Shown here: one piece after another, positions 25,916 to 61,200 of the stretch | How the letters are laid out: the number at the start of each line of letters is the position of its first letter | Position numbering within the stretch: position 1 is the first letter of the stretch | NCBI GenBank assembly: GCA_032622095.1 | Contig: CP136063.1 | Span: 28,832,987 to 28,896,986 of the forward strand | DNA length: 64,000 nucleotides | DNA from: Siphonodentalium dalli | Lineage: Eukaryota; Mollusca; Scaphopoda; Gadilida; Siphonodentaliidae | Direction of reading: 5' to 3' | The notes under the pieces: generated by a model | The model's input: the letters and a program-made list of their open reading frames with translations, nothing else | What the model was told of the DNA's origin: nothing | Databases searched by the model: none | Program-made: the position numbers and the translations under genes

Positions 25916-26173
25916 ACGCCATACATATATAAATTATATATTAGTCTTATACAAGTAACCTCTAAAGCTACTGGCAATAGGCCGTAATCTAGACGTCACG
26001 ACTAAGAGAGTTTGAGGCTTCAAGAAAATGAAAAGCAATATGGAACATAAATATCACAATATAATCATTTTAAAGTTGAAAAACTTTCAACATTCAAACC
26101 GAATAGTTGAATGTATGTATTATTACCACTCACATATGAAGTTATAAACAAACTGGAACCAGGGATCAGCAGA

Positions 26174-34159: not shown

Positions 34160-34503
34160 AAAATGTCCGATGAATCTTGTCATGTTAAAACCCGTTGTCG
34201 GGAGGAGGCGATATGAGAGTTTCACTGATGCCACAGTGGTGGAAGATAACCGCTAAGATGGTGGTTCGGTTATGGTGTGGGGAGGGATGCATTTTGACGG
34301 TCGCACAGACATGTTTATCATCCAGAACGGCACCATTGATGCTTAAAGTTATAGGGTGGAATTCTAGACCTGTTTGTGCGACCGTTTGCAGGTACCGGTA
34401 CTATAGGTGCATATTCCTTTCTGGTAGAAGATACCACCAGACCACACTGAACCAGGCTTGGGAAACGTTGTCTCAAAGAGGAAGGAATCAAATGCATTGA
34501 TTT
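34160..34503 (+). pseudogene. Tc1-like transposase, catalytic part, 5' half (interrupted)
   Basis: With a few frame changes and stops the sequence reads SDES (first catalytic Asp), RRRYESFTDATVVEDNR, GSVMVWGGMHFDGRTDMF, IIQNGTIDA, FVRPFAGTGTIGA and VEDTTRPH (second Asp), ending EEGIKCID just before the insertion at 34504. This is the standard order in Tc1 transposases. The reading resumes at 54270 on the far side of the inserted element. Confidence 0.85.
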
Positions 34504-34516
34504 CCCAAGAGAAAAT

Positions 34517-34830
34517 AAGACCAAAATTTCAGTGAAATTTCAGTGAAATTTCACTGAAATTCAGTGAAATTACCAAATTTTGGTGTTATTTCACCATCTC
34601 AGTGAATTTCACTGAAATTTCGGTGAAATTTCACTGAAATTTCACTGAAACTTATTTTAACTTTTCCAGTTAATTTCACTCAAATGATAAAATATTTTTA
34701 AGTGAGATTTTGAGTACTTTTCAGTTTTAAATATAAAATTTCACTAAAAAATGATAAAATAGTTTTCAGTGAGATTTTGAGTACTTTTCAGTTTTACTTC
34801 CAGTAAAGGGATATTGCATATGAAGGGATC
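34517..34830. repeat. Left subterminal repeat array
   Basis: More than ten variants of TTTCA(C/G)TGAAA in both orientations are packed within about 150 bp of the terminus, followed by looser units ('gtgagattttgagtacttttcag' twice, about 80 bp apart). The motif is itself near-palindromic, which would suit binding by a dimeric protein. Confidence 0.85.
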
Positions 34831-35178
34831 ATGCATATGAAATTTTTATTTATCAATGGGCTACATTTTCCATTATCGGTAAGATCGTGTCCATATTATC
34901 ACAATCAAAGACTATATATCTTGTGCGGATGACATTTTCAATTACTCAAATGAGAGGATTTGGTAAAATACAGGTAAAAATAGAGAGTGAATGTCAGCGG
35001 ATATTTGTTTATATTTTGGCTGTCCTTGTTTACATTTATGAAAATTATGAGCAGTTCAGACATCATGTTCCCCCATTTTCTAGAAGAAATAATAGTTACA
35101 TATAGCTCTTCCAGAAACGAATATCACTTCATTAGGACATTGAGGTGTCAATTTATGTTGCTGAAATATGATATGGCT

Positions 35179-38100
35179 TTAATTATGCTCCACCAGATTT
35201 GGTGGTACAGACACAAAGGTCAGGTTATTCCCTATTTCCATGTAGACACACTTCTTTACGATATAACTGACAGGCACAAGTAGAGTTTTTATGTTCTTTG
35301 ATGTCACTTCATGAATGTGAGAACACAGAGAATGTGATGTATTCACATAGGCACTGAACTCTGAAGGGATTGGTGTTCCAGGTTGAAACATATCAGCAAC
35401 CTGAATTGTTTCTACAACAGCAAACAGATTGTCCGAAAAACTAATAAAATATTTGATGAAAGCAAATGTGTTGTCTTCAAGCAGGACAGTATAGGAGTTT
35501 TCTTTTGTTCTTTTGTACTGCTGGCATGTACAGATTCCTATCTTTGTCCTCAAGCGGTGAAATTTGTAGATTTTCCCATGTGCATTATCGTATTTGCTCA
35601 ATACAACATCCATAAACACATGGTCATTACGGCTTGGTTTGAAAAGCTGCATTTTCCCAAGCGCAGATTCTGTTGTATCTTGATTTTTACTGAAATCGGA
35701 CATATATATAAATGCATTACTTTATAGTAAGAATCATAGAATTTCAAATTGTTTAGTGAATGCATGTCTATGTGGATTATTGTCAATCGAACGTCATTGA
35801 CAATGTAGTTTGTTACACTGTATTAAGCGTATTTGTGGATTATTGTCAATCGAACATCATTAACACTGCAGTTCGTTACACTGTATTAAGCATGTTTGGG
35901 GATTAATGTCCATCTATTGGATAAATGCCACGCAGGAGTTAGCCATCGGTAGAACCCGTCATTTTGACGGGTCATCCCCTAGGATGAGACTATAAAATTA
36001 AATGGTTCATCATTTAGGCATGGACTCATATTGGTCTCATTTCTATGTTGTTCAATGTTCCAAACATTGGTTCATTGTTAGAATAGTGATGTACAACAAT
36101 AAAAATCATTTGTTTAGTAAAATGAAACTCCCAACAAAAAAAAGAAACTCCCAACAAAAAAAGTTGATTTGATATGCTTGAAAAATGTTATTACCCAACA
36201 AAGCTCTTAGATAAACGCTCTGCCAAACGTTGAATGTCTGTTTCTGTTTCATCTTGAAATTTCTCTAACAATCTTGGAATGGCTTTTGCCATTGAGTAAG
36301 CAAAACTGACCTAAAAAGCCAAAATATGTAAATTTCAAGATATAAGCACTTCCTTCTTGTTATGGTAATTTGAATGATCTGTTTTCACAACTAGAGACTA
36401 ACCATTTTTGGCTATATACTGCACCATAACGGCTCAAATTCTTGGCTTTTTTTAATTTAAATATCCTTGTATCAAAATAAAGTAATAGTTTCAATTGGTT
36501 TTGAGGATCACTATAAATAATTCATGAGAAATTAGGCGACGTCAGGAAGAAATGAGTGTAGATAGTCCATGAGCCTCTTACCCAAATGTCTCTTGCATGA
36601 ATTTTTAACATAATCCTGGCCTGTGGTAAACAAATTATGATAAAGGTCATTCAAGAAGCAGAATATATCTGTCAATAGGCCAAATAAGAGATATTCATTC
36701 ACCAACAGATTTGCTCTTGTACATAACAGTAACATGTAATACTGACCTGGCTATTTATATAGCGAGTTCCATGCACCATCCGCTTCAAATATGAATTCAT
36801 TGATTCAAATCCGAAACAGGAAGTGGTGAAAAGTGGTCCATACATTTCCACAAACCGAGGTAAGTCTTGGAGTAGGTGAACGTTCATTGTTTCTTGATAG
36901 GGTCCTGTAAAAATTTGCAATGCTTCAGTTCGTATATAAAGGGTTATTATTTGGTATAAATATGTGTGACAAAAATAGGGTACATGTATGTGAGAATATT
37001 TAACATTGTTTTGAGTACGTCCTTCAAATTGGTAAATATTTTTGTTATTTTACCTTATGTTATATCAAGGAGTCAGAAATAAGAGGAAAGACCCAAATAT
37101 ATTTGAGAACTGAACAGTTCATAAAAGCTGCTTTTGTTTGTTATTCTGGGGCCCATCTTAATTTTGTTCTTGCCAATTATGATGAGTGTTATTAAATAGA
37201 TTGTTCATTAATTACTAGTATATTTAAAACCTCTATAATAAGACTATTACAATCATTGGAGTTAAATGTGTTAATTTAATTACATATTAAAGCTTGTAGT
37301 AGCATTGTATGCTAGTTATCATTTACTTTTTCTCAGAAGAACTACCTACAACTTGTGAGAACAGACCACTTGATAAATAATCAATTACTGAATACGTACC
37401 ATAATATTCTGAGAATAATTTGCTGAAGTGGATAAGAAGTTGTTGTGCATAAACAATATCACCACCGTGTATTTGTTCCTGATTGAGGAGAAATAGTGCA
37501 GTCACCAACATTCCATAATGACAGTAATGTGCAACTGGCAAAACATCTCTGAGAACTGGCATTGAGAAATGCAGAAGCCATTCCCGATACTCAGTTGCTG
37601 AAAAAAAAAAAGAATAATTATATTACCAATTAAATACATGGCACCAAATTTGACCTTTTTTTGGGAAAGCTAATAAATATGTTCTTGCCACAGATCTTAG
37701 CTGCTGACCGCAGTTAACCAGCTAATGAGGCCATCCGTAATAGATTTTGTGTTTGCCCTCTCCCTACCGTACATTTTCAGGGTGGGTACATGTAGTAGGT
37801 GGGTACATGTAGTAGGTGGGTACATGTAGTAGTTAGGTTAATTCTTTTATTTTTAAAATATAGATGAATAATTTAGATAAGACGTATGTACGTTAAAGCA
37901 GCACATTTTTTATTGATGAAATGTTACCTTTCCAGTGGCCATGGTCTTCAAGGGATCTCTGTTTGCGACATATGAAATCTGGTATCTTTATCTGGAGATA
38001 TCTTTTGTTTAAGAGGGATATCTAAAATATTATAGAAAACAGATAGTGATACGCATCTGCAAATCGACTGATATTTGTGAGTGTACTTGAAAGCTTTAAC

Positions 38101-41100
38101 TCAGTATTATTTCTCCCAAAAATATATTTGTTATTTAAAGTGATGTGAAACACTCTGTGGGGTGAGCAAATAGAAATGGAGAATAATCTTGTTCAAAGAA
38201 GTTATTTTTACAAATATTATATCTAAATTGACAACACACAGCCGTCATTCTTATATATTAATTAAATGCAGTGACTGCCGATGGCGAAATCTTTTTCGTA
38301 AGTTTAACGCCGATAAAAGCGTCCAGATTCGAGTGGTAAATATTTACAATTTAGCGTAATTTAGACAATGTTTTCTATGGAGTGGTACGGTCGATTTGCT
38401 TGAGATTCCCGGTGATGTTAGTAGAATGCTATATTCCTCCAGTTGGCATAGCACCCGAATACTAACTTATCAGTTTCACGCACCCAAAACAAGTACATAA
38501 TATGTCTTTAAGTCATTAAGATACATGTAAGTGTGCGGATAATCAACAAAAAGTTTTTCATAATAGGGCTGAAGGTAACTTAAGATATTATTATTACCTT
38601 ATTACCAATATAGAAAGCAGAATTTTTGTGTTTCTTTCCCAACCAAAGCTTTAGAAGACTCTTTGTTACTCCCAGGAGTACTCCGTGCATCCAGTCAATA
38701 GCAAATATTGTCGGTAGACGGATATAACTCAGCAGCACTAATGGTGATGCTCCTTTTATACCACGAACCTGAAAGAAGTTTAAACTAGGTTAATCTTCTA
38801 AGTCAAAATTCTCAATATCTCTCTAAATAACACATGGTTCAGATGTTCTCATAATGGTTCTGATGCATGCCAACTTGCCAAGTTTGAAAACAAATAAGGG
38901 AAATAAAGTTCCGGACCAAAAATTAAATGTAGCTGTAATACAGAATTTTGGAGAAAAAGTAAATAACTCAATCAAAATAAGTCAGATTGCCATTGGTTTC
39001 AATATCGTAGGTGCAGGGCTCCAAATAATTTATATAGTCATTAAATTCCACCCTGCACTATTATTTGGGTCAGGTCTGTATTTTTATTAAATTTGGCAAA
39101 AACTTCCCCCTACGTACACTTCTATTTTGGGTCTGAACTTTTATTTGGAGCCAAGAGTAGCATAGGCAATAACACTTACAGCATTTTTAGATTGTACAGC
39201 TTTCATTATATCACTGATCCAACCACTGTGTGTTCTTTGTTCATTCTTCGAATTGAATGGCCAATACCTGTGCAGACTGTTTCCAGGCCGCGTTTTCCCC
39301 CTCATGAAGACATATACTACATCCAAATTTTCCATTGAATTGTTTCATGTTTGATACCATAGCTCTTGCGGGAAGATCCATTGTCGTCGTCAGCAAATGG
39401 GCTCTCAGTAGACATACCCCGCTCTTGGTAGTAACTCGAATGCCTGCAAGATAATGGTGACTTTCCAAACTTTCATACACACTATTTAACACCCCGGGAA
39501 CCGGTATTTATTTTCTGGTACCGTATAGTACTGGTACGTTGGTGTGTCATCTTCTGTTTAGTTGCCCCCCCCCCCCCCCCCCCCCCCCCCAAAGAAAGAA
39601 ACTTGGTATGTGACTGAATTGACTCTCAATGCACATGACATGTAGTATGAATCTGGGCTCGGTTGTACGTCATATCAAATATAGGAAGTGTCATCCCGAT
39701 AAACCAAAATTTCATGAAAATGAGATTAGAAATACGGGCTGTAGCCAAAGCAAAGCCAAAATACTGGATGTAGCCAAAGCCAGACAGACGTCAAGTGACA
39801 ACACTACATGTACATTTGGTCTTCTAGACTTCTGTATTGAAAAGTGGCTTTTAGATCAACCTCTAACTACAAGTAGTTACCTTTTGCTAGAATGTTCAGC
39901 GTATCCATCAAAGGAGTCATGTATGTTTGCATATTTGGTTTCTCTGTATGACAATGTAGATGGGTAGCCAGTATGAATTTTTTGGAAAACCTGAAAAATA
40001 TATATATTTTTGGTAAACGAACAACAAATAAACACGTATGTCTTGTGTTGTTAGAATTAAGAGTTTGTGAACGTGTGACAATCTTCCTGCGCTTACCTGA
40101 CCTTTTATAATCAAAATTTATTGAATAATGGTGAAACGCAAATACATGTAATGTAATGCGGTGATAAAGTTTCGTACTATTACGGTCGAATAAGCAGAAT
40201 GCACTTATTTGGCTATTCAACCTTATACGGTCATCTAAGCAGATGCTCTTAATTGACGGTCGAATAGCCAATCCCAATATAATATAAAAACATATTTACA
40301 TACAACATGTATATACAAACCTTTTGACTATCGGAATCTCATTTATCGCAAGATATATGGGCCACAAGCTGCCTTTTTTTGATGAAGTGAACAGCGCAAC
40401 ACCATCTGAAAAAATAAAAGTAGAATTATTGTATTTTTATATAAACATTTTATATACATTCGATACTTCATTTAATATCGTCATACATGTATACATGCAC
40501 TTTCAATAGGATAAGATTGCCATCTCATTTTCGCTAAGTTAATATTCTGAATTTCATTCTTTTGTTATTAAAGTTAAAACATAAACAAGTTTTATGGAAA
40601 TATTATACATGTACCCTCCTCTCTTTGCATGCCATCGTTACCATCTTAAATTCATGTTCATACACATACATGTACAATATATCTGTTAATTTAAATGACA
40701 TTATGTTACATAGTCTAAGAAGGATTTACAGTTTACTATAAACATGTAATACATTAATACATACATATACCCAGTATGTGAGATGTACCGTACATGTATG
40801 AAATTATGAAGATGGGTCATGGAAGCACCCGAAGTATTTTAACATCATGTGTTAAAGTTTAGTTAAACACACAGTGTACATGTACCTGTATTTAACGTGA
40901 ATGTTAAATTGATGACATCTTCTTGTTCTGGCAATGAAATTCGCCTATACTCTGATCCATCAGTAATATCGGATATCAAAGAATCATCTCGATTATGATT
41001 TCTCTTTACTGCAGAATAAATTTCGTCATCTGCAAAAAAGATCAACCTTTGTACATGTGTAGCACTATATATGAATGGTTAACGGTACACTCGAAGTCGG

Positions 41101-42519
41101 AATACAAGCTGTACTTGTAATTAATTAATTAATACACCCCCCCCCCCCCCCCCAAAAGGAGAGCAGAATTATATGTGTGATATTCAGATTTTATTCAACT
41201 CGTTTGATAAATCTGCCAATAAACAATAGTGTGTGCAGCTTACTCCATGATCCAGCAGGAAACTATTGATTTGAATAGATTTTTTTTCGAATCGATACCA
41301 TCATCGCACTTGAGTTCAAATGTTTTTTGGATTTAACTTTTCTACATTTCAACACATTTGGACTTTAGTGTGAAGGAGCGGTTAGAAAGATGATTCACCA
41401 CAAGCCACACCTTATATTCCAATATACAAGTAACTCGTTAGAAAAAAATCACTCTCAGGAAAATAAATAATAGTGATGGCATTTTCGCTATTTGTTCCAC
41501 TGCCAAATAATAGTGCTCTGATCATATAGTCTGATGACTATTTTTTTTAAATTAATAATCTGCCTAACTATTATTAGGCAGACGAGAGTCCCAACATAAT
41601 TATAGATATATGTTACGTTCTATATTTAGAGTGTAAAAACATCTTACCTTGCAAAAGACCTTTCAGCTGTTCGATGATATTCAAGTCCATGAACTCATAT
41701 GTCTTTGCATCATTTTCCTGACAAACTGGCGATGAACAAATTCCTGTTTCATTATCAATCAATCCATTGCATAGTTCACAAACTTTATACCGCTTGGGTA
41801 TTGAGAAGGAAATTTCTTTTTTCAAGACTTCTTTCAATCTGTAAACTGATGACACATATCTATTCATAGTTTCAGCAGGTAAATGTGACCGGACTAAGAT
41901 GATAAGGTCTGAAAACTCTTCTTTGGAAATAGAATGTTTCATCGCAAACAGCATTAGCATGATATAGGACTGTGAATAAGTATATTGACATCCACTATAC
42001 AGAGGGTGATCCTTCTCGTTCTCTTCGGACTGAGCATCTTGGTATTCTCTAGCATCAAAAAAATCATCCTGACCTGATAAAATGTCATCTCCATCCTCGT
42101 CTGACGTGTCACTAATACTGCTACATCCACTTTCTGATGATGTGATAGTGCTACCGGTAGATGATTCATCGGAAATTGACATTTCCAAAGTTGAATCAGT
42201 TTCTGAGTCAGTATCAGAGGTACATGTAGTTGCTGAACGATTACTAGTATCATTCCCACCCATATCTGGCAAATAAGCCAAATTGGCATGCGGCAAATGT
42301 GGGTATTTCAAGTGCATCTTGCTTGTAATAGTTAGCAAGTCTTTTGTTTACTCCTGTATGGAGTGAACGTTTGTACCTTCGTTTTCTTGGTGTTGTATAA
42401 TTGTTAAATGCACATTCGTCACCCGAGGAAGAAACGGAATCGGTAGGACTCGGAGAAACACTATCACTTTCACTAGTTTCAGACTCTGTTTCACTTGAAG
42501 TTGAATATATTCCCGCCAT
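35179..42519 (-). CDS. Tnp2/CACTA-like transposase, multi-exon (about 11 coding exons, two frameshifts)
   Basis: Exons by minus-strand splice sites and phase: 42519-41648, 41029-40886, 40405-40321, 39990-39881, 39443-39180, 38768-38598, 38021-37928, 37597-37400, 36904-36747, 36310-36195, 35689-35179. Conserved blocks run in the order expected for this metazoan Tnp2-like family: an acidic Ser-rich N-terminus; YSGCQYTYSQSYIMLMLFAM; CELCNGLIDNETGICSSPVC (zinc-like); LNTDGVALFTSS (candidate Asp); MDLPARAMVSNMKQFNGKFG; GCSICLHEG; AIDWMHGVLLGVTKSLLKLW (candidate Asp); LRDVLPVAHYCHYGML; CFGFESMNSYLKRMVHGT (candidate Glu); and a C-terminal KENSYTVLLEDN...IKYF domain. Phases agree at every junction from 41648 to the stop. 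Frameshifts occur near 42300 (exon 1) and in a five-G run near 39315 (exon 5). The ATG at 42519 or 42561 could be used. It probably mobilises the 19.8-kb element. Confidence 0.85.
35768..35915. repeat. Tandem repeat of about 65 bp upstream of the last transposase exon
   Basis: Two and a half copies of 'tgtggattattgtcaatcga' followed by 'gttacactgtattaagc' lie in the intron between the last two exons. Noncoding. Confidence 0.8.
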
Positions 42520-42561
42520 GTTTTGTTCAAGTTGTTGTAATAATCCGGATTTGCGGTACAA

Positions 42562-44428
42562 AAAAGACGCACATCAACAATGTGACAGCTAACAGTTCAT
42601 ATTTATGGTTATGAATTATTAGTTAAGCTTTTATCTGGAAACTATTCAGCTTGTGGCGTTGATAACTAGTACTGCATCGTCGGGTATTGAGTCACTTAAC
42701 TCCGATGTGATGTCGCATTTTGTTTTGTTTTTGTAGCTGATAGGAAATCGAATCTGATTGGCTAATATCGGGTCACCCTAAAATATGTGCACCGAAGCCG
42801 TTTGAAGCGAGAAACGTTTACACGGAGATCGTCTTGTCTCCTAACCGGATTTTGAGGAGGCCATGCAGTAGGCCTAGCTATGAGACTTAATTGCTCCCAT
42901 TTTATTAGTAAAACGTACAAACAGAATAAATAGAACAGTTTCATAGAATCTGGTAGCCTAACAACTAAAGGCCCTAAATATGAGCCCCCCCCCCCCTTTT
43001 CGTACGCCGGATTCGACCCATTTTGGACCCGTAGGCCGGCCTACGCCGGATTCAAGACACAAATTAAGCTGGATTCCGGATTCATGTATTTATATAAACG
43101 GAATTCCATTTCGGGTGAAATATTGCGATTTGGTTCCTCATTTGGTCATAATAGATCATAATATCATGAATTGTATATGGGATCCAATATGATGCACACT
43201 CTTATAGGACTTATATAGTCCGTATATATTCGTTTGTATACGGTGCTCTTTATCTTTCCGGTCATTATTTGCGGCAACATATCTCAAAAATTGCCCCAAA
43301 GACATAGCAAAACAACTTGGATGATGGACTGCCAATTATATTTCCGTGAAAATGCGCTGTGGGCATAAACTTAACCCACAATTAAAAAATATGTAGGCCT
43401 ATATGTTATATTGGGCTACCATCAACATATAAACAACGGTAGGCCTACCTCCGATGGCTTGTTAAAACAATATAACCTTGCCAGGATAGTGTGTGGATTT
43501 CAACCATGCTATATGTAAAACTGTTTACTCTCCGACACTTAGCTATATCATCAAACACATTAATTCAAATGGCGTTTGTTTGGCGGTTTACATGCGATGT
43601 GTTAAGCATGATTGTTAATATTATTATCTGGGACCCAAGCGGCCATATACACGCATGCATATACATGGATGTGTATTGTTTGACTACCAGTGGATATATA
43701 CATATTATCGGGGGCTCCAACTCCCGTGCTACATGCATATATTTATATATCAAAATCAATATGTAATCATCGATTAATCCCCAATTTTCTAGTGGAGCGT
43801 GCGCATTATGTTATTGATCTGTCCGACCGTCTGTCCATCCATCATTCGGTAAATTGGTTTATATGTGTGGTGGCTTAAGATACGTATCAACTTTCTAAAC
43901 TTAATTTAGTATTTGGGTTTTCTAACACAGAGTGCAGGTCGAAACCACGTGTTCGATGACCGCCGGCCAATTTCCGCTATAGAATAGGGTCCCCTTTTTT
44001 TGGGATTTCCTTCCATGTGCGTCCCCATGTGAGGGCATTGGTAGGCCTAAGTCCAAACTTGTTTTACTGGGATTATACTGATCCGGTGCAGGTTGGGTTC
44101 GAGTTTGGAGTCCACCCGAGGGTTTTACATGTGTTATCACATCGGGGTATTAATTCTGGGTCAATATATCACGCCCATATAAAGAGCACTTAATTTATTA
44201 GTTTTTACACGGGAATGTGATAAAGATCGGTTAATCCAAGGAAGTCTAGACGCATATTCTATACCTTTGTTACTCTTATCCTAACATTTTGTAAACTATC
44301 GCAAGGTAGACTGCTCTGGACCTCATTGGTGAAGTTTCCACTACCGGGGTTCAAGACGGGGGTGCCTTTATATGTGGGACCTGCTCATAAATTATGGGTA
44401 TCACAAAACTAATCTATAATATCATGTA
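42562..44428. promoter_or_regulatory. Left part of the divergent intergenic region between transposase and BEN genes
   Basis: About 3.3 kb separates the two divergent start codons. It must contain both promoters, although I cannot place a TATA box or initiator with confidence. Near 42968-43085 are a poly(C) run and repeated 'tacgccggattc' and 'ctggattccggattc' phrases that recur at about 45365-45440, so a further repeat has been interrupted by the 44429-45321 element. The short plus frames at 43491-43878 have no support. Confidence 0.4.
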
Positions 44429-45321
44429 GGGGAGACCCGGGCAAAGCGGATCACGTAAGGGTTTCTTGAACAAAATGCAACCGGCAATCAGAATTATTAG
44501 CACTGTCAGTTTCTAATCATGATGGCATAACATTTGACGGATGATGCATTAAGATACATCTATTGGTTTGGTTGCTATGGTGATTTTTAATTTTGATCCG
44601 CTTTACCCGGCCGTTTGGGCAAATCGGATCACCACATCGGGCAAAGCGGATCAGCAAACGAATCCTTCTGAAAATGCAATAATTTTCAACTATTTATATG
44701 CTTTTTAGTTTTATTTATTACAATAATACATATTTATCCCAAAAAATTAATACCGCGTGTTTTCAAACGTTCAAGTTTATCAATTATGGTCATGCTCCGA
44801 CAAGGCACGAGTTTTGTCGATACATCGGACTAAAATTGTCCAAATTCACTTAATCTACGCATGTGTACCGGAAGTTAGTCATGTTATGAATGATCCGCTT
44901 TGCCCGATCCGCTTTGCCCGATCCGCTTTGCCCAGATCACACCTTTTTACAGTCCGGCGAATTACGCGCGTGTCCTATCAAATATAGGAAATTGACATAT
45001 TGTCTTATTCCACATATATATTGCCTAAGACACCGACAACATTTATTCGGGTAGATGGGTATGTGACCATCGATCTGCGCAATAGATATGCGCAAACGCA
45101 CAACAATTACATATTTGGTAAAATCGTAAAATGTCGACGAAAATGTTCTAATGGGCTACAAAATTTTAGTATACCTAGTTCTCTGTGGAAATGTATAAAA
45201 ACTAACCAAACATAAAACTATCTTATTCTAAAATACGGATAGAATCGGAATAATTTTCTAGTATTGAAATAATAAAGGTGATCGGCTTTGCCCGGGCGAT
45301 CCGCTTTGCCCGGGTCTCCCC
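44429..45321. mobile_element. 893-bp TA-flanked inverted-repeat element with GATCCGCTTTGCCC motifs
   Basis: Left end GGGGAGACCCGGGCAAAGCG and right end CGCTTTGCCCGGGTCTCCCC are exact inverses, flanked by TA at 44427-44428 and 45322-45323. Inside are about nine copies of GATCCGCTTTGCCC or close variants: inverted near 44440, 44622 and 44640; direct near 44595; three back-to-back near 44890-44932; two near 45282-45312. There is no transposase frame. TA duplication suggests a Tc1/mariner-related or similar non-autonomous element nested in the 19.8-kb transposon. Confidence 0.85.
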
Positions 45322-45323
45322 TA

Positions 45324-45850
45324 GGCCTAAACTGGACGTGAAATCGGTATTTGTTTCTTAAACTGGATTCCGGATTCCAGGGTCAATTTGAAGCTGGATT
45401 CCGGATTCCAGCGTCATTTTAAAACTGGATTCCGGACTCAATGGGGGGAGGGGGAAGGGGCCCTCCTAAATTAGATTCTATCTGTCTTGCAAAAATGATA
45501 TTACCAATTATTAATAGGCCATAGACGAAAAATAAAGTGACACTGACTAAAACAGACAAAGAACGACTGCATGTCATAATTATGTGGTAGGCTACCAAGC
45601 GTCCACATTATTGAGGTACCACATTGTCCCGTGGATAACAATTAAACGTCCATGCATGCAGGTACCGGTACCATCGTCCAGAAACCATGCACAACTTTCG
45701 ATTCAGGGCATACACCTTTTCTATAAGCCGGCCTTCCGTACAACTTTTAGCGTGTCCCTCTTTTCGACCAATCAGAATCTTCCTGCAACTCACGAGGAAC
45801 TCTTGGAAATTTGGCGCATTTTTACTAATTCCAAAACAACAACAAAAACA
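45324..45850. promoter_or_regulatory. Region immediately upstream of the BEN gene
   Basis: Holds the second set of 'ctggattccggattcca' repeats and, from about 45590, an open frame continuous with exon 1 of the BEN gene. The BEN start was set at the ATG at 45851 because the frame upstream shows no conserved character. The promoter is expected here but not pinpointed. Confidence 0.35.
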
Positions 45851-48800
45851 ATGGCAGTGTTTATGAAATATGCGCTAATGTTATGGCATAAGGACACACC
45901 CATCGGCGGAAATATTGTAAAACTGTCCGATATAAAAGAACCTGATATCCCAAACAACGATTACAGTGTTGGTGATCGAGTTTTGGTGCCACTTCGTGGG
46001 TTTGGAGACTGCTTTGGTACCATTGGAAAACTTGCGGGTGAGTTTATTTACGCCATTCATATGATCCGATATGCATATTCTACGAGCAATTGCATCATTT
46101 TGTCATGACTAATGCCCTGATATATGAAATTATATTTCATAAAATGAAACGACCAAATATCCGATTGTCATTATTCAAATTTATTGTGTATTAAAACTGT
46201 ATTTATCGACGGACAGAGTAGGCTATTATTAATAATATAATGATAATCATGTCTATTAATTATATGAGGTCCAGTAGGTTGGGGAAACCTTAGGCCAACA
46301 AAAAACCAAGATACTATGTTTCCGTACATCGACCGACCCTAAAAATAACCCGCCGACCCAAAACTTTTTATTGATATTTTGAGAATTTTTTTTTTTTTCT
46401 TTCACTGTTTAAGTGTTTTAACCAGGGGGGGGGGGGGGGGGGGGGGGGGGTGAAAAATTTTCCGGCACGTATGCCGGGGTGGGTGGGTGGTCAAAGCCAC
46501 CAACAAGCAATTTTTTCCTCAACTAAAAAAAAAAAATTCTGCTTGTTTTTTAGTTAAAATTGGGCTTCAAAACCACTTTGAATGAGAGAAATAATGTAAT
46601 TCTAACTGTAAACTGACTGCAGGCAGATATCGTGTTGTATTTTGTTGCAAATTTTGAAATCCAAGATGGCCGCTGCCCGCTGGCAGCCATGTTTTTTTTG
46701 GCCCGAACGACCTCAAAATGACTCATTCCTATTTACATGTCCATGTTAACATCCATGATAAATAGTATATGCACAGAAATTCATATACATCTGTTTACAG
46801 TGAATTTCCACCCGCAAAAAAAAATGTGGTATGTGAATAATAAAAAACATACTTAAGCATGAAGTAAGTTTGATTCTTTATCAATCTTAATGTATATTTG
46901 GTCGAGGTAGTTCAATATTTCTGCAGCTGGATAAAAATTATCGAAATAAAAAAAAAAAAATTCCCTACCTACCTACCCTAATTTTTTCGCGCCGCTACCA
47001 GTAAATACCATCAATATCTGTCAATATCACAAGAAAAGGCTAAATTTTTGGTACTAATTTTAAAAAAAACGAAACAATTGTGATATTGTCCCTGAACATA
47101 CCATACGATAAAATCAATTGAAATGCAAAAGTTCTTTTGTAAATTTCTTGCAGAAGAGAAGGACAAAGAAGCTCTTCGTGCTATATTGAATACCAAGGAA
47201 TTCTCAAAGATTGTTGAGGCTATATGTATTGGCAGTAATGGCAGAGGCACAAATTCTCACCCAAATGTAAGTTGTAAATCATTGTGTCTTGTGTCCCTTT
47301 AATATTGTCTACTTTGGCTTATTTTGTTCCAGGTGCCTGTGGCTATTATCTACGCATTATTTGTTTCTAAAATGTTGAGTTATACTGTTAGACGTCTAAA
47401 AAATGTCTGTGTGCTATCTGGGGTCCTTATCTCTTTGCTAACACAAGTCGTCTATGTCATTTTAATGGAAAAAAAACAATTAAAATATATCAATTCTTGT
47501 TAATATTCCATATTTGTTTCTAGGATGAAGAGCCTGGCGTTCGCGATGATACAGCAGACAAAGTTGTCGTTAAGAAAACCATTCAAGAACCTGGCGTTCG
47601 CGATGATACAGCAGGCAAAGTTGTCGTTCAGAAAACCATTCAAGAGCCTGGCATTCGCGATGATACAGCAGACAAAGTTGTCGTTAAGAAAACCATTCAG
47701 CCTGGCGTTCGCGATGATACAGCAGACAAAGTTGTCGTTAAGAAAACCATTCAACCAGAAAATGTGTGTACATTTTAATTTACATTTACATGTTTGCCCA
47801 CTTTGCCGGGAATATATTTCTGAGAAGGGCAATCACCCTCTATTATGAAGGCCCTCATGCAGTTAATCTTAAAATATCCAAAGTTTCGGGGGAGGAGAAA
47901 TGCTCAATGTCTGCCTTCCCGTCATGCCATGGCAATTTCCCTCCTGGCACAAAATTAGGGAAGGTGGCTACTGCCCTCCTGCTATTTTTGAAAGGACATC
48001 CCAGGATTATGATTTTTGTAAACACAAGAAATGTATATACCGTATGTAATATATGCATGTAATAATTTAAAGAAACTTGTTTTATACATTTAATAGTTCT
48101 AGGAAAGAGACTATAATTACTGTGGCAAGGATTGTATTTTGTAGTCACAGAGAGTGGTGTGATGTCATTGCACACGACAATATGACACATGTCTTATTAT
48201 ACGCTCTGGGGAATTTAATGTGTTTCTTGTGACAAATGTAAATCAATTAGAATATATCCTGAAAATCAGAAATAGAGGTGTTAATTAATATAACTCATTT
48301 TTGCAGAGGCTTGCAAACCAGATGAAAACAAAAAAGACTGAAAAGAGAGCATTAACTGATGCCGAAAATACAGACCAAGAGGTATTTCCAATTATGATTC
48401 ATGAACCCATTTATGACTGAATGGACTTTCCTATTCAATTCTAAAGAGATGTTACATCAATATGTTCCAAATTTATACGGTACTGTATCAAACTTTTCAG
48501 GCAACACTAGTAATTTCCACAAAGACCTACATGTAAATGTGCCAAATATGTTGAACTTATATATCTCAGAAACTAAATTTTCGGTATACATGTACCGGTA
48601 TGCATGCCGGCATCAAATTGGACCGACGAGCACTACATGTATGTTAGGGTTGATAGTATCAACTTGATACAGATACGTATCACAATACAACGATACAATA
48701 CATATCACGGTATGCAAAAACCATGTTTTGCAAGAATTTTCTACCTAAATTTCGTGAAAAACATTAAAATATCCCGCTATTTGTAACGACATGATGTACG

Positions 48801-51800
48801 TGTATTCACATACCGGTACTTCTATTATCCAGTGTATAATATAGCACTGCATTAATTTACAGTTTCCATTATTGTATCTATAGGCAAAGAAGGCAAGGAA
48901 GGAAGATAATTGCCTAAAGGGGAAAAAGGAAAAAAGTAGAGAGCAGATGTGCAAAAAGTTATCAGAAACTTGGTTGGAGAAAACTGCTGCCAGGGTGAGT
49001 TAATTATTTGAATTTATTTAATAGTACATTAATGCGGCTCAAGATTTGTTGTCCAATAAGTTACAGGTACCGGTATGTAGATATACAGGGATTATTTTTA
49101 TACGCCCCTTTTGAAAAAAAGGTCGTATTATGGAAATGGGGTTGTCCGTCCGTATTTGGTTTCCAGATGATAACTTTAGATTAAATAAGAGTGAACTGAA
49201 CCAAATTTGGAATGTTAGTTTACCACACAAAAAATACAGATCAAGTTCGAATATGGGTTTCGTCCGCATGATTTTGACTAAGTTATGCCCCTTTTTCGAA
49301 TTACTGGATTTGCAGTTTACGGATGATAACTTTTAGATTGAATCAATTGAACTGAATCAAATTTGGTATGTTAGTTTACCACACCAAACACAGATCAAGT
49401 TCGAATATGGGTTTCGTCCGCATAATTTTGACTGAGTTATGCCCCTTTTTCGACTTAGATTTCACCTGATTTGCGGTTTCCAGATGATAACTTTAGATTG
49501 AATCGAGTGAACTGAACCAAGTTTCAAACAAATTAATTAAACCTTGCCCCACATTACTCCAGAAAGGGCGTATTGTCCTCACGCCCTGACGGCGTGCTCT
49601 TGTTTATTTTGCAATATACAACAAAAAAAATCATAATTTCACTATAGAATTTCACATTTTAAACTCGGACACTCCACTCCCTGTTGGTGGATACCAAAGT
49701 TGATGAGTCTTCATTTGGTGATGGTACACCTCAATTGTAATCCCAAGTTAAACTTCACAAAACTCATTGTAATCCCAAGTTAACAAAAATTTCTTTTAAA
49801 ACTTTGTAATCAGTTAAATATTTAAGATGGGAGAACAGGCTGTCAGTCTACTGATTTATTTTATAATTCATCATTTTCAAACCACAGGATGAAAAGCCTA
49901 AGCAGAAAGCCATACCAGAAAAAACTCAGACTTCTGCTACCCCACAGACGTCAGCAGAAAAGTCACCCCAGACTCAAGAATTAGTGAAACAGGTAAAATA
50001 ATTTTATTTTTTTTACTTGTCCCTAATAATTTGAGGAGAAATGTTAAATCAAGCTAGCTAGGTCATATGATATTTCACATTTCATATTAAAGTCATCTGA
50101 TCTAGACTGAATTCTGATTGCACTGACGTAGTAAATGGAATAAAATATTGGCGAGTTCAATTTTCCTCTTGACAATCAGGGACCCACCCCTAATTTATAA
50201 AATATTTGAAATATTTGGAAGTTTGTCGCAATTGAAAATTCGACAAAAGCTGTTCGATTTTCACTTTTTCATGAATCACATGGAAATCGGTTACATCTGC
50301 TTATATTAGTGATTATATTCTTAGTAGAAGTATCAATGGGGTTAAAATAGTGACCAGATAGCTGATATGTCCTTGTACCCTGGAAGTTTTTGCCAACCCC
50401 TCCCCCCCTTCCCCACTCCGAGTTTACAAGCATTTAAAGATGCAGTACAACTTTCAGTTTTGGTACAAATTAATGTGATGAATTTTGACATCAAGCTTTG
50501 ATATACATGTACCTCCTTACTGACAGACATGTTCAAATTCGTTTTGTTTTATATGTTTTTTATTTTTCAGCTTGGAAATATCGGCCATCTATTAGAGAAA
50601 ACGCTGGAGAAACAGGAGACAATAGACCGCAAGTTGGAGAAAACACTGGAGAAACAGGAGACAATAGAGCGCAAGTTGGAGAGCTTTACAGACTTGCTAA
50701 ATTGCCGCCAATGTTTGCGCTCTAGATATAAGGTATTGTACCCAGCGAACAACAATTTTAATAAAAAGAGTTCGGGATCAATCCACTGTTTTTAGTGTAA
50801 ACAAAGAACGCGCATTACAATAATGATACATGGAAATAATCTGAAAAAAGATATTTATGGTTATAGGATTTTTAAGAAGGTTATTTGGGGGATTTGAAAA
50901 CAAGCGGAATGGTTTTATTATGTCATCTCCCCTGTGATGAATATCCTGAGTGGTGTGGGAACGCAACGTTATAATAATAAGAAATCTGAGTAATATATAA
51001 CCACTCGGTTGTTTGTGTTCCAATTGTTTAGAACTTTAGATTCATTTATAGTTTGTATTTATTATACTCACAACCTCACATGAGAGTATGTAAATACTGG
51101 ATAATTACTCCACCATATTAGATCATGCGGCCTCGATAATTGTGTCATCGGCATCAATCATTTGTGACAGCTATTAACTCTAATATATGAAAAAAATTTC
51201 AATTTCAGAAATTGAATGTGAGGGACGTCATAAATGTGGCTTCAGGTGATGCCTTGCCATCATCTCCCTTGGCGTCACCCATATCTAAATATATGATGTC
51301 GCCTAAGACTCCTGTGTCTAATGGGACACTTCAGACTACTGTGTCTAATGGGACAGTTCAGACTCCTGTGTCTAATGGGACACTTCAGACTCCTGTGTCT
51401 ACAGAAAATTGCCCGTCTCCAGCTCACAATACTGTGTCTACTGAGAGTGACATATCAAATGGCGGTACAAATCCGAACGATTCACAACCGGTCCATGATA
51501 GTGGTGAGTGTAATTTTGATATAAAAAAAAAATTGGGGCTCCATGCAACAACCGGGTTTCAGAATCATGATGCTTATGACCTCTCCAGGGCAGAACCTCA
51601 TTTGAATCGAGTATGGTAAATATTTATTGTCCCCCGAATTTTTTTTTTGGGGGACTATCAAAATCAGCGGTGTCCGTGCATGCGTCCGGAAATGATTTCT
51701 GGATGATAACTTAGCCACCTTTTCGGGAGACACTGTGGTCGGCTGACCTTTTATTCAAATTAAGTCATCTGAGACCCGTATGGCAATGTAATGATTGTAT

Positions 51801-52943
51801 CAGAAAATGTGCCCTCTTTTCCTTCGAAAATGCATATAGGAAAAGCAGAACTATGATGGGGATATAATCAATTACAGGGCAAGTCCATATTTCTCCAACA
51901 GGACCTACTTTTAGTATTACACAATATTCTGGTCATAGAAAAAATTAACAATTTAATCTGTACAATACTACAATGTACATACAGCTACATGTGTGCACAA
52001 CTACACGTACATGTATTCAACGTTGTAGTATTGTGCTTTTGCTCTATTTGTAAATATGCACTTTCGTCCATTGAAGTATGAATATTCAAACAGATTTTTC
52101 TCCCTTACAGATCTAGTTAGCATTGGAGAAAGCATCCATGGAGTACGGATGAAAAGGGATGTTTTCGATCGTTGCCGTAACACAGCAAAAAATGCAACGA
52201 AATATGGCTTAAATTTATTGGAGAAGTTGGTTACGAAGGAGGAGTGCGGGCATTCAGAGAGGAGGATGACGATATATGGGGATGCCAAGGGAACATACCC
52301 TTTGGATACACATAAAAGAAGAGCTATTAGAAGTAAGTACCGGCATAATTATTTTCACTCCCCTACAAACTCCCTTTCATTTAAAGTGGCATTGTCAACT
52401 CTTTTAAAAAAAAAAACAATATTCCTCCAGTAAGTGGGTATTCTGTTAATTGCCAAACGAAAGTTAACACACTATAGTTGTGATAACGTCAACAATTCTA
52501 AAAAAAATCCAAAACCACTGGACCGATTTGACTGAAATTTGATATGAATTTTCCTTGGGTGACTTAAATTCATGCTTGAAAATTAGGGACTGCTCTGCCA
52601 ATAAGGGGCCAAATAAAAGGCACATAACTCTATTTCCATTCTCAACTCTAAAAAAAATCTTTTCACAGTTCTCATGCAGGACTGAAATTTGGATTTGGAT
52701 ATTCCTTGGGTGACCTATGTTCATTTAAACATGCTAATTGTGAATTGGTTAAGTGATTGGCGCATGCATGATGAATACAATAATATTTCATTTTGATCCA
52801 CTTTAATTTCAGGCCAAATATTTGCTGAATTCCATCAAGACGCCAGCAGTGTCCAACAGGAAGCCATTTGGAAGTCACTTCTGGGTCCCCTGAACAATAA
52901 AATTCGGGGTGTAAGAAATGGCAACTACAAAGATCTAAATTAA
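45851..52943 (+). CDS. BEN-domain DNA-binding protein, 10 coding exons, 546 aa
   Basis: Exons: 45851-46037, 47154-47266, 47524-47763, 48307-48381, 48884-48994, 49888-49992, 50571-50732, 51209-51503, 52111-52332, 52813-52943. Every junction is GT-AG and in phase; the sum is 1641 nt, exactly 547 codons with the stop. The N-terminus contains VGDRVLVPLRGFGDCFGTIG, a small barrel-like module seen at the start of many invertebrate BEN proteins. Exon 3 encodes four 18-19-residue repeats. Exon 4 to 6 products are Lys/Glu-rich. Exon 7 is a heptad coiled coil (LLEKTLEKQETIDRKLEKT), likely for dimerisation. Exon 8 is Thr/Ser/Pro-rich (TPVSNGTLQ repeats). Exons 9-10 form the BEN domain: NLLEKLVTKEECGHSE, YPLDTHKRRAIR, WKSLLGPLNNKIRGVRNG. 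BEN domains bind DNA. Being inside the transposon, it may bind the subterminal repeats, by analogy with plant CACTA TnpA-type proteins (inference). Confidence 0.85.
47529..47751 (+). repeat. Coding minisatellite in BEN exon 3 (57-bp unit, four copies)
   Basis: Four near-identical units encode EPGVRDDTADKVVVKKTIQ or close variants; the last is 54 bp and lacks the Glu codon. Unit lengths are all multiples of three, so the frame is kept. Differences are single substitutions (D to G, K to Q, V to I). Confidence 0.9.
49085..49600. repeat. Interspersed repeat in BEN intron 5
   Basis: Tandem, diverged blocks of 'ccagatgataactttagatt', 'tttggaatgttagtttacca', 'caagttcgaatatgggtttc' and 'agttatgcccctttttcga', bracketed by inverted cgcccctttt / agaaagggcg. 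Likely a mollusc-type non-autonomous element; no coding capacity. Confidence 0.65.
52490..52745. repeat. Fragment of the 'ccttgggtgacct' interspersed repeat in BEN intron 9
   Basis: Contains 'ggaccgatttgactgaaatt', 'ttccttgggtgacttaaatt', 'ggcacataactctatttcc' and a second 'ttccttgggtgacctatgtt'. Related to the blocks at 29.6-30.4 and 57.0-57.5 kb. Confidence 0.6.
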
Positions 52944-53101
52944 TATTATAAATATGGAGCTTCCTGAAATCTTGCGAAAACCCAGTGCCAATGCAATCTC
53001 TTATATATGCGAGTCTCCCATAGAGAGACTTGCATATATAAGAGAATGCACTGGCAATGAACTTTAATGCTGCACCAGGGGAAACTCCCATCATAGAGGG
53101 G
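52944..53101. mobile_element. Degenerate TTAA MITE at the BEN stop codon, copy D
   Basis: TTAA at 52940-52943 contains the BEN stop codon TAA, and a second TTAA lies at 53102-53105. The CCAATGCA.TCTCTTATATA palindrome (about 52988-53054) is shared with the other MITEs. The terminal repeats are weak (TATAAATATGGAG against CCTCTATGATGGGAG read inward), so the exact left boundary is uncertain. Confidence 0.5.
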
Positions 53102-53105
53102 TTAA

Positions 53106-53889
53106 ACCAGTCCAAATAAAGGACTTATTATTCACATATTTTACCAAGCTTCTTCTAGAATTATAATATTAGATCGAAACACTGAGAAGCGCACAATATG
53201 CATGTAACAAGTTTTATATAATTCCCTAGGTATAAAATAATAAAAATGAATTAACCGATGACCACTGTCTGGAAACACTTCTATTAATTAACATTGATTT
53301 TATTTTGAATTTTCTGGTATAATAAACCTGCATGCTTATAATTAAACAATTGGATTATGGTAAAGTCAGATAAATTTCATCGTTTAGAAAGTTTCTGACA
53401 TTAATTCAGTTTATATGCACATGCATCTTTTAGAATTAATGTATTGTTAAACTTGTCCACAGTTTCATGGATATTTATAGAATTTGATTTGAACAAACTA
53501 GTAATGTTTACTGGTAATTATAACTGGTAATGCATGTAACTGGTAATTAATTTAATGAAACTTTTGATTCACATAAACCTGATCCAGTAATTTGCTTAAA
53601 ATGCTAATTATGTTGATCTATATATATATGCACATATCTTGCTTGAGCTGTCTTATTCATGTCAGTTCATTTCATTAAATATATTTACATTTCATATATC
53701 CTTGTTCCATCTCATTGACCAATGCGGGCCAGCATATACAAAGATCGACACGTTATACAGTAAAATCGAACTGGATTTCTCAGTTCTATATAGGGTTGAA
53801 AATTTGACATGTGATACAGAACAAGGGTATATATAGTACAAGAAATGATGGAACCATATTGTGGTATGGGTTTTATGTCTATTCTGACT
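53106..53889. other. AT-rich spacer, nothing recognised
   Basis: About 780 bp between the BEN gene and the right subterminal array. It probably includes the BEN 3' untranslated region. I see no gene or structured repeat. Confidence 0.4.
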
Positions 53890-54254
53890 GAACTTTTCAA
53901 TTGAAATAATTTATATTTCAGTAAAAATTTTGAGATTTCAGTAAAGTTTTGGAGATAATTTGACTCAAGTAGTGAAATTTCACTGAAATTTTGGTGAAAT
54001 TTCACTGAAATCTTGGTAAAATTTGACTAAATTTTTTACTGTTATTTTGGTGAATTTTTGGTGAAATTTCACTGAATTTTTGGTGAAATTTCACTGAAAT
54101 TTTGGTGAAATTTCACTGAAATTTTGGTGAAATTTCACTGAAATTTCGGTGAAATTTCACTGAAATTTTACTGAAATTTTGGTAAAATTTGACTAAATTT
54201 TTTACTGTTATTTCAGTGAAATCTCAGTGAAATTTCAGTGAAATTTTACTCAAC
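53890..54254. repeat. Right subterminal repeat array
   Basis: Repeats of GAAATTTCACTGAAATTT with gg(t)gaaatttcactgaaat spacing of about 19-20 bp, denser and more regular than on the left. 'ttggtaaaatttgactaaat' occurs twice within it, about 170 bp apart. The array ends 13 bp before the element terminus. Confidence 0.9.
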
Positions 54255-54267
54255 ATTTTCTCTTGGG

Positions 54268-54430
54268 TTACCAGCGGTATCATACAATCTCAAACTCATA
54301 GAACATGACTGTGTGAGGTTGTAGACTGTGTGACAACTCGACACGTTCAACAGACATCTCTGCAAGAGTTGGACCAATCTCTGGTTGGGGAATGGATCTA
54401 ATCGTTTATACCAGATGCTTTCTCATTTTC
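54268..54430 (+). pseudogene. Tc1-like transposase, 3' part (continuation across the insertion)
   Basis: Reads SYNLKLIEHDCVRL (equivalent of the NPIEHVWDEL block holding the catalytic Glu/Asp) and, in a shifted frame, VTTRHVQQTSLQELDQSLVGEW, the usual C-terminal part of Tc1 transposases. Stops and shifts show decay. It is co-linear with 34160-34503. Confidence 0.8.
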
Positions 54431-59281: not shown

Positions 59282-61200
59282 CGGAACACATCAAACAATA
59301 ACATTACCGGAACATAATAGACTATGACATCACAATACATCTATTATAGTGATGCGAACTTGACTGCTTTGGACTGATCCGGTCCGTGGTCCAAGGGTGG
59401 ACCGCGGTCGGGTCCAGACCGGGTGTCACTGGACCGGCCCGCTTTTTGCCGCCGGTCCGGTACTCTCCGGTTCGGTCCACTATTTTACTTCAGTTATAAT
59501 AAACTTATCGCGAATATGATTGCGTATTTGCCGTCATTTCAATTGGTAAACAATGCATTGACGCATTCAAGTTGTTAATATCTATTAAACGTTTGATGCC
59601 ACGAAAACAATGTATAGGTGTTTAGCATTAAACTCTATGTCCTCATGAAAAGCATCATGTAGTAGATCGCTTTCACCGTTTCCACCACGTTCGACCCGAT
59701 CTCTTGTTCTGTTTTATCATCCTTTCGTATTCCGTCTTTTGCTGTGCGATTTTGGATCTAGATTTGAAATAATAGTATGCAAGTGAGCCGAATGCTTCCA
59801 CTCGCGAGTGATTTGATTACATGGCGTTATAAATCGGGTGTCACTGGACCGGACCGGACCGCTTTTTGCCGCCCGTCCAATACTCTCCAGTCCGTCCACT
59901 ATTTTACTTCAGTTATAATAAACTATCGCGAATATGATTGCGTATTTGCCGTCATATCAATTGGTAAACAATGCATTGACGCATTCAAGTTGTTAATATC
60001 TATTAAACGTTTGATGCCACGAAAACAATGTATAGGTGTTTATCATTAAACTCTATGTCCTCATGAAAAGCATCATGTAGTAGATCGCTTTCACCGTTTC
60101 CACCACGTTCGACCCGATCTCTTGTTCTGTTTTATCATCCTTTCGTATTCCGTCTTTTGCTGTGCGATTTTGGATCTAGATTTGAAATAATAGTATGCAA
60201 GTGAGCCGAATGCTTCCACTGGCGAGTGATTTGATTACATGGCGTTATAAATCGGGTGTCACTGGACCGGACCGGACCGCTTTTTGCCGCCCGTCCAATA
60301 CTCTCCGGTCCGTCCACTATTTTACTTCAGTTATAATAAACTATCGCGAATATGATTGCGTATTTGCCGTCATATCAATTGGTAAACAATGCATTGACGC
60401 ATTCAAGTTGTTAATATCTATTAAACGTTTGATGCCACGAAAACAATGTATAGGTGTCCTTTGTACTTTGTACATGATATGAATTTGGTCAGGTGCTAGA
60501 ATACTCACTCTAACATCTTTAGTCTGAAATCTACAATATTGATAGGCGATATAAAATGTTATATATTTACCTGATGATGACTCTAGCGGTTTAGCATTAA
60601 ACTCTATGTCCTCATGAAAAGCATCATGTAGTAGATCGCTTTCACCGTTTCCACCACGTTCGACCCGATCTCTTGTTCTGTTTTTTTATCTTTTCATATT
60701 CCGTCTTTTGCTGTGCGATTTTGGTTCTAGATTTGAATTAATAGTATGCAAGTGAGCTGTATGCTTCCACTGTCGAGTGATTTGATTACATGGCGTTATA
60801 AACCGGGTGTCACTGGACCGGACCGCTTTTTGCCGCCCGTCCAATACGCTCCGGTCCGGTCAACTATTTTACTTCAGTTATAATAAACTATAGTGATGCG
60901 AACTTGACTGCTTTGGACTGATCCGGTCCGTGGTCCAAGGGTGGACCGCGGTCGGGTCCAGACCGGGTGTCACTGGACCGGCCCGCTTTTTGCCGCCGGT
61001 CCGGTACTCTCCGGTTCGGTCCACTATTTTACTTCAGTTATAATAAACTTATCGCGAATATGATTACGTATTTGCCGTCAATTGGTAAACGATGCATTGA
61101 CGCATTCAAGTTGTTAATATCTATTAAACGTTTGATGCCACGAAAACAATGTATAGGTGTACTTTGTACATGTCACTTTCCTTATAATAAAAGTGCAATT
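59282..61200. repeat. hAT-like GGACCGG repeat cluster, right copy
   Basis: Four to five tandem partial units start with TATAGTGATGCGAACTTGAC (about 59346 and 60890), include 'cactggaccggaccg', and pass through 'tactttacttcagttataa'-like and 'cgcattcaagttgttaatat' blocks. The minus-strand GGNGESDLLHDAFHEDIEF block occurs three times. Two successive units near 59630-60040 and 60045-60460 are almost identical. Its relatives are at 2370-4040. Confidence 0.65.

Follow-up and report, generated by a model that had tools for sequence, protein, structure and literature searches.

A CACTA-like transposon of Siphonodentalium dalli with a BEN-like gene divergent from its transposase

Boundaries, ends, and insertion site of the element

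The window, the whole 64,000-nucleotide stretch of S. dalli DNA that was analyzed, contains a transposon with CCC...GGG ends, a transposase gene, and, in divergent orientation, a second gene for a predicted BEN-like protein. The element and its terminal features are as follows (window positions).

34504..54267, no strand, whole transposon, 19,764 bp
34502..34503, no strand, left copy of the TT target-site duplication
54268..54269, no strand, right copy of the TT target-site duplication
34504..34516, plus strand, left 13-bp terminal inverted repeat CCCAAGAGAAAAT
54255..54267, minus strand, right 13-bp terminal inverted repeat, the exact inverse of CCCAAGAGAAAAT
34524..34650, no strand, left subterminal array of 11/22-bp units
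53972..54259, no strand, right subterminal array of 11/22-bp units

The exact inverted ends, the TT duplication on both sides, and the arrays at both ends, all reported in a preliminary description of this DNA, were present. The six commonest 10-mers common to both 500-bp ends had no copy in the interior; one of them, GAAATTTCAC, occurred 6 times in the left end and 15 times in the right end. In silico excision of 34504-54267 together with one TT joined ...GIKCID to LPAVSYNLKLIEHD... in a single frame, which was lost when 0, 1, or 3 bases were removed instead. The frame restored by excision, which had been ascribed to a Tc1 transposase, was thus recovered; the flank is presumed to be Tc1 from its motifs, and its 57-residue piece had no Pfam match. 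In six 400-bp ends, perfect palindromes of at least 14 bp numbered 1, 1, 0, 1, 7, and 0, against shuffle means of 0.03 to 0.15; these counts were weak as backing for the binding of a dimer to palindromes, and that argument was dropped.

Transposase gene

The exon models of both genes were predicted from the sequence by eye and by script.

35179..42519, minus strand, transposase gene, 11 exons, PF02992 match
42519-41648, 41029-40886, 40405-40321, 39990-39881, 39443-39180, 38768-38598, minus strand, transposase exons 1 to 6
38021-37928, 37597-37400, 36904-36747, 36310-36195, 35689-35179, minus strand, transposase exons 7 to 11

The product matched PF02992 (Transposase_21) with 44.1 bits (cutoff, 28.6; E = 1.8e-11) in a reading with XX at one frameshift, and membership of the element in the CACTA-like (Transposase_21) class is supported. 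Two one-base frameshifts, in exon 1 and exon 5, distinguish the window gene from a copy on C8, whose transposase is an open reading of 906 aa. There were 24 homologous proteins, the best from Solemya velum with 54% identity; relatives of the transposase also occur in Branchiostoma and Corticium. The transposase has the D-D-E residues, and the C8 reading contains D339, D426, C445/C448, H655, and E679 (numbered from motif positions), the roles of which are presumed, in part after PMC12730594. According to that paper, the stretch from the second D to the last E of CACTA transposases holds C(2)C as well as H(3-4)H. C(2)C is present in the window transposase; where most relatives have HLLRH/HLLQH, it has HLLQD, with Asp at the second His of the H-x3-H pair. 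With the transposase alignment as query, collections of viral contigs and of genome contigs gave 80 and 20 pattern matches, respectively, none of which was confirmed.

Second gene

45851..52943, plus strand, second gene, predicted model of ten exons, open, 546 aa
45851-46037, 47154-47266, 47524-47763, 48307-48381, 48884-48994, plus strand, second-gene exons 1 to 5
49888-49992, 50571-50732, 51209-51503, 52111-52332, 52813-52943, plus strand, second-gene exons 6 to 10
47524..47763, plus strand, exon with a 19-residue repeat in four copies
52111..52943, plus strand, BEN-like C-terminal domain on two exons, phase-1 intron after LDTHKRRAIR, below PF10523 detection

The predicted 11 exons on the minus strand and ten on the plus strand agree with the two divergent multi-exon genes described before, with the reservation that the window transposase is frameshifted. 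The second gene is open in the window and disrupted in the C8 copy. One stretch of its protein has the look of a coiled coil, and the BEN-like domain takes up approximately residues 425 to 546. Since the protein had no match to Pfam BEN (PF10523) at E values up to 5 or 10 in HMMER, whose filters drop most weak matches, it is called BEN-like here.

Copies of the family in the genome

A genome search with the left end (34504-34830), in which 40 of 99 candidates were scored, returned at least 114 matching pieces spread over all nine contigs, and 27 of the 40 main matches started at query base 1 (counted from the match table). Eight copies were read base by base; all had both 13-bp ends with at most one mismatch per end, the CCC core, and perfect 2-bp duplications (TT, GA, AT, AA, AA, AC, AG, and AA). 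Two full-length copies were found, in the window and on C8, each with both genes between the termini; their gene-two regions differed by 26 mismatches in 7,046 aligned bases and by 19 indels. Two observations had been named in advance as speaking against a two-gene element, namely, copies ending elsewhere and a BEN gene never found with these termini. Neither occurred: the eight copies had identical end points, and in each of the two full-length copies the termini enclosed the BEN-like gene. The suggested inspection of copies for both genes and for duplications thus bore out the duplications in all eight and both genes in the second full-length copy, the short derivative copies consisting of ends and arrays only.

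Related elements and the identity of the BEN-like domain

Two independent elements with CCC ends contain both Tnp2 and BEN.

C6:215894589-215903770, Tnp2 and BEN, CCC ends, TC target-site duplication
C3:88297157-88306732, Tnp2 and BEN, CCC ends, TT target-site duplication

In both, BEN exons rather than whole gene models were identified. The C6 BEN matched PF10523 with 40.0 bits, and the C6 transposase piece matched PF02992 with 27.8 bits, slightly below the cutoff of 28.6. In silico excision of the C6 element left a continuous frame of 133 residues, and a PF03372 match (24.3 bits; cutoff, 24.5) spans the joint. The C3 BEN reached 22.0 bits against PF10523, slightly below the cutoff of 23.2. 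The transposases of the window, C6, and C3 elements fell into three separate groups, each well supported. By eye, a phase-1 intron splits the BEN coding sequence at the same aligned place in all three, its distance from the leading L or M in an LD/MN motif being ten residues.

The window domain was compared with approximate reference BEN sequences, BEND5 and BEND6 singly and five together as a set. It stayed below PF10523 detection, whereas the reference BEND5 scored 61 bits. Global pairwise z values were 2.7 against BEND5 and -0.2 against BEND6, and 15 of 1000 shuffles reached 2.7; hhalign against the five sequences gave a probability of 27%. An HMM of the five sequences alone scored the window domain at 9.3 bits, above all 500 shuffles. 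With the C6 sequences added, the domain ranked third among 2000 shuffles, and with the C6 and C3 BENs added, it scored 11.2 bits, a value reached by none of 5000 shuffles. When the HMM was built from the C6 and C3 BENs only, the domain scored 0.6 bits, and 526 of 5000 shuffles did as well. A structure predicted for the BEN exon by itself had a pLDDT of 45.6 and was uninformative as to fold.

Searches by homology added no match. With the BEN region as query, none of 76 candidates reached E ≤ 0.01. The same held for all 7,995 candidates scored against a two-row alignment that paired the reference BEND5 with the window protein, a search that was uninformative because BEND5 relatives were not recovered either. 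The domain had no sequence match in the PDB, where the reference BEND5 gave unrelated matches only, and NCBIfam gave no match. DUF4806, a BEN subtype according to the available text of PMC11075544, had no match in the S. dalli genome, and control genomes likewise gave none. The earlier naming of the second protein as a BEN factor is kept in a weaker form: its relatives and the shared intron place suggest a BEN-like identity, which Pfam does not confirm.

Genome-wide pairing of Tnp2 and BEN

PF10523 places at E ≤ 10 (n = 89, with 51 over the Pfam cutoff) were compared with 100 Tnp2 loci at a pairing distance of 35 kb. A Tnp2 locus lay within this distance of 29 of the 89 places (random mean, 0.38; maximum, 4 in 2000 trials), and 28 of the 29 pairs were divergent, as in the window. 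By our own count, 18 of the 51 places over the cutoff were paired. With 78 PF02992 places used instead, 22 of the 89 BEN places were paired (random mean, 0.31); 20 of these pairs were divergent, including 18 of 18 within 25 kb. No Tnp2 locus lay within 35 kb of 60 BEN places, and 71 of the 100 Tnp2 loci had no Pfam BEN within 35 kb, the window family being counted here as its gene escapes Pfam; BEN may therefore not be universal. At nine further Tnp2 loci, no BEN was seen within about 4 to 5 kb. The genome-wide list placed a BEN 9 to 28 kb away at five of them (L010, L014, L015, L017, and L059), where the apparent lack was due to the short flanks inspected, and four (L009, L056, L057, and L058) stayed without BEN in that list. 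The recurring head-to-head Tnp2-BEN pair points to a transposon design with two proteins that is little known for animals. No report of the combination was found in the literature searched.

Proposed mechanism and alternatives

In plant CACTA elements, the best known, the helper protein TnpA acts at subterminal repeats. We know of no TnpA-like helper for animal CACTA elements, and the recurrent divergent BEN gene is a concrete candidate for one. With a probability of about 0.7, the window element is a two-gene animal CACTA (Transposase_21, "TRC") cut-and-paste transposon with a BEN-like protein acting at the arrays and ends or at the promoter. The transposase would bind the CCC ends, cut, and paste. 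The BEN-like protein, in a role modeled on TnpA of plant Spm, may bind the 11-bp subterminal units at both ends through its C-terminal DNA-binding-type domain and either bring the ends together or control the shared promoter region. Short copies with ends and arrays only would have been moved in trans.

It is rather unlikely that the BEN-like protein protects or expresses the element as a chromatin or anti-silencing factor instead of binding its ends in transposition. Many Tnp2 loci with no BEN detected nearby would fit such a role, and fungal transposons with TET/JBP genes offer a parallel, an escape role being proposed for them in the available text of PMC12730594; however, the dense end-specific arrays could use a binding partner, which is suggestive only. 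We consider it improbable that this one family captured the second gene, whole or as a fragment, from a host and that the gene has no role in transposition. The window protein does differ greatly from known BEN domains, BEN is undetected within 35 kb of 71 of the 100 Tnp2 loci, and capture is frequent in CACTA elements and known for those of plants. Nevertheless, capture by one family is strongly disfavored because the Tnp2-BEN arrangement recurs, with the divergent layout in 28 of 29 nearby pairs and the pair found in three separate transposase groups with intron place and phase shared; moreover, the ten exons of the gene give a complete reading of 546 aa. That the pairs are chance neighbors or nested insertions in transposon-rich DNA is hardly credible: although Tnp2 and BEN places are many on C3 and C7 and 12 of the 29 pairs, all similar copies, cluster in C7:18.8-24.0 Mb, local shifts of 0.2 to 2 Mb gave a mean of 2.1 and a maximum of 8 pairs against the 29 observed, 16 of the 17 pairs outside the C7 cluster were divergent, and the C6 and C3 elements hold both genes between matched ends.

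BEN proteins are animal transcriptional repressors and chromatin factors, and a transposon link is possible for part of the family. More tentatively, animals might possess a large, old CACTA class with an array-binding BEN second component, a counterpart of plant TnpA with another fold, and chromatin BEN proteins may have moved between hosts and transposons; we hold this broader view at slightly under even odds.

Comparison with known systems

Maize Spm/En (TnpA and TnpD) resembles the window element in its two proteins and Tnp2-type transposase and also has subterminal repeats; TnpA is not known as a BEN protein. Spm has CACTA ends and 3-bp duplications, and this plant-type combination is replaced in the window family by CCC ends and 2-bp duplications. 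The Spm proteins come from one transcription unit by splicing (available text of PMC1636069), in contrast to the two divergent genes of the window. The terminal CCC, previously called unusual, is not so: in the same text, DeMarco et al. (2006) observed 2-bp duplications and put forward CCC as the core sequence at the ends of animal CACTA elements. The animal TRC elements treated there (SmTRC1 of Schistosoma, and those of Aedes and Tribolium) share Transposase_21, CCC ends, and 2-bp duplications with the window element and have spliced transcripts, as predicted for the window genes. With about 4.7 kb in a nearly complete clone, SmTRC1 is far shorter than the 19,764-bp window element, and it makes several proteins by alternative splicing, with no BEN gene named in the text available (PMC1636069). 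In the window element, the BEN-like gene is a divergent unit of its own, and the subterminal arrays are long. Fungal EnSpm/Plavaka elements with TET/JBP belong to the same CACTA group and carry an accessory chromatin-type gene, but the accessory enzyme is a dioxygenase, and a BEN protein is not named in the available text (PMC12730594). Animal BEND5-type proteins share with the window protein a short N-terminal domain and a C-terminal BEN, a similarity that is visible and weak.

Ends, insertion site and copies of the element

The 13-bp inverted ends, TT duplication and subterminal arrays attributed to the CACTA-like element in the preliminary description were found at the same positions when the sequence was reread. 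The window lies at C3:28832987-28896986 of the S. dalli assembly (2.23 Gb, nine contigs). Excision of the element together with one TT left a single continuous frame, which was open when 2 bp (TT) were dropped and broken when 0, 1 or 3 bases were dropped. The empty site proposed earlier held as a reading frame. By its motifs, we take the flanking gene to be a degraded Tc1 transposase, a label that Pfam did not confirm in the 57-residue flank piece.

A search with the left end gave at least 114 matching pieces in total, spread over all nine contigs (best 40 of 99 candidates scored). In each of the eight copies read, the window copy included, both ends were in place and 2 bp of target sequence had been duplicated (TT, GA, AT, AA, AA, AC, AG, and AA). 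Two were full length, the window copy and C8:282056-302289 (20,234 bp), whose large aligned blocks were 95.7-99.6% identical. The copy at C3:294.05 Mb (7.6 kb) lacked the middle part, and five copies of about 1.9-2.1 kb, a nonrandom sample taken as the next five left-end matches by score, retained the end regions only.

Genes of the element

Gene one, window element, minus strand: 11 exons with GT-AG introns, Transposase_21 protein (PF02992, E=1.8e-11)
Gene two, window element, plus strand: 10 exons, all GT-AG, 546 aa

The two full-length copies carried complementary damage, each with one damaged and one open gene: gene one is thrown out of frame by a single base in exon 1 and again in exon 5 of the window copy and is open over 906 aa in the C8 copy, where the BEN exon of gene two has gained 46 bp. 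Relatives of the transposase (24 proteins) came from Solemya velum (54%), Branchiostoma, the sponge Corticium, and other sources. The protein retains the D-D-E residues along with the C(2)C motif; in the H-x3-H pair, the second His, usual in most relatives, was replaced by Asp.

The gene-two protein consists of a short N-terminal domain, a 19-residue repeat present four times, and a BEN-like C terminus, with a stretch that by eye looks like a coiled coil. It had been called a BEN protein on first description, yet Pfam, BEN (PF10523) included, gave no match to the window protein. Pairwise likeness of the domain was faint to BEND5 and nil to BEND6. A profile of five reference BEN sequences alone scored the window domain at 9.3 bits, above 500/500 shuffles, and addition of two sister-element domains raised the score to 11.2 bits, above 5000/5000 shuffles. 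In another profile model it ranked third among 2000 shuffles, and in a model of the two sister domains its score was matched by 526 of 5000. Because the models disagree, two placing the domain above all shuffles and the others being poorer, we name it BEN-like, an assignment suggested chiefly by the sister elements, with their BEN exons and common intron place.

Sister elements with Tnp2 and BEN exons

C6:215894589-215903770: 9,182 bp, ends 13/14 matching, TC duplication, subterminal arrays of its own
C3:88297157-88306732: 9,576 bp, 12-bp ends (best among four end pairs listed), TT duplication

One strand of the C6 element reads as Tnp2, sharing 35% identity with the window transposase and scoring 27.8 bits, slightly below the cut-off of PF02992; the opposite strand holds BEN exons (PF10523, 40.0 bits). 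Excision of the element in silico produced a continuous endonuclease-type frame in the host sequence, with a PF03372 match spanning the joint (24.3 bits, cut-off 24.5). The C3 element carried Tnp2 and, divergent and upstream, BEN exons that scored 22.0 bits against a cut-off of 23.2.

The window, C6, and C3 elements fell into three separate well-supported groups when a tree was built from 35 transposases, so the Tnp2-BEN pairing either is old or has arisen repeatedly. A phase-1 intron splits the domain at one aligned place, LDTHKRRAIR/S in the window, MNPTEIREFE/E in C6, and LDELRVSAIK/D in C3, and this common place favors a single old BEN gene.

Genome-wide pairing of Tnp2 and BEN

PF10523 at E<=10 listed 89 BEN places (51 above the Pfam cut-off), and the window transposase as query gave 113 matches, merged to 100 Tnp2 loci. 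A Tnp2 locus lay within 35 kb of 29 BEN places, compared with a mean of 0.38 and a maximum of 4 in 2000 random placements, in which two contigs were taken as equal in size, and with a mean of 2.1 and a maximum of 8 after local shifts of 0.2-2 Mb. BEN was upstream on the opposite strand, as in the window, in 28/29 pairs, including all 18 with a BEN place above the Pfam cut-off and 16 of 17 outside the cluster at C7:18.8-24.0 Mb. When the Tnp2 list was taken from PF02992 instead (78 places), pairing was seen for 22/89 BEN places (random mean, 0.31); 20 of these pairs were divergent, including 18/18 within 25 kb. These counts are lower bounds, since both searches score best candidates only and PF10523 misses the window family.

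The C7 cluster (C7:18845711-23986954) comprises twelve like Tnp2-BEN pairs within about 5 Mb, 11 of them spaced 13.25-13.35 kb and every transposase match with one in-frame TAG; this run is a local amplification or segmental duplication.

PF10523 detected no BEN within 35 kb of 71/100 Tnp2 loci, many-copy families among them, and 60/89 BEN places had no Tnp2 locus nearby. A PF02992 family with a 909-aa open reading (at C6:1785449, C1:6370116, and C3:484959, for example) occupied at least 12 places on six contigs, ten scoring equal, none with a BEN place within 35 kb. At the Tnp2 locus L056 (C4:20560000-20569999), two candidate CCCTG.. end pairs (2794-9695 or 1310-9695, both with TA duplications) were present and no BEN was found, and CCC-ended Tnp2 elements without BEN may thus exist.

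Proposed working and earlier reports

Beside the ends, duplications, derivatives, and gene pairing observed here, the listed 10-mers of the end arrays had zero interior copies in the window, C6, and C3 elements. The transposase would cut at the CCC ends, and the BEN protein would bind the end-specific subterminal arrays and there assemble the ends or regulate the divergent promoters, a role modeled by analogy on maize TnpA. The main rival gives the BEN protein an anti-silencing role.

The terminal CCC, earlier regarded as unusual, is not so: DeMarco et al. 2006 (PMC1636069) already describe animal CACTA elements with CCC ends and 2-bp duplications. Fungal elements carry accessory TET/JBP genes, according to PMC12730594. 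In the open literature searched, "BEN domain" did not occur with "EnSpm" and occurred with "CACTA" and "transposon" in unrelated contexts only; at least two papers name both a BEN domain and a transposase, and in a zebrafish paper naming BEN domain and DNA transposon, the BEN passage was unrelated to transposons.

Other features of the window

20721-26929, minus strand: reverse transcriptase (PF00078), phage-integrase-type N-terminal domain (PF13495), and GDSL-type hydrolase reading, presumably a DIRS/Ngaro-type retroelement
7192-10575, minus strand: open reading of 1,127 aa with a cysteine-rich C terminus and no Pfam match
59431-60457: 418-bp unit in tandem, two and a half copies, 98% alike
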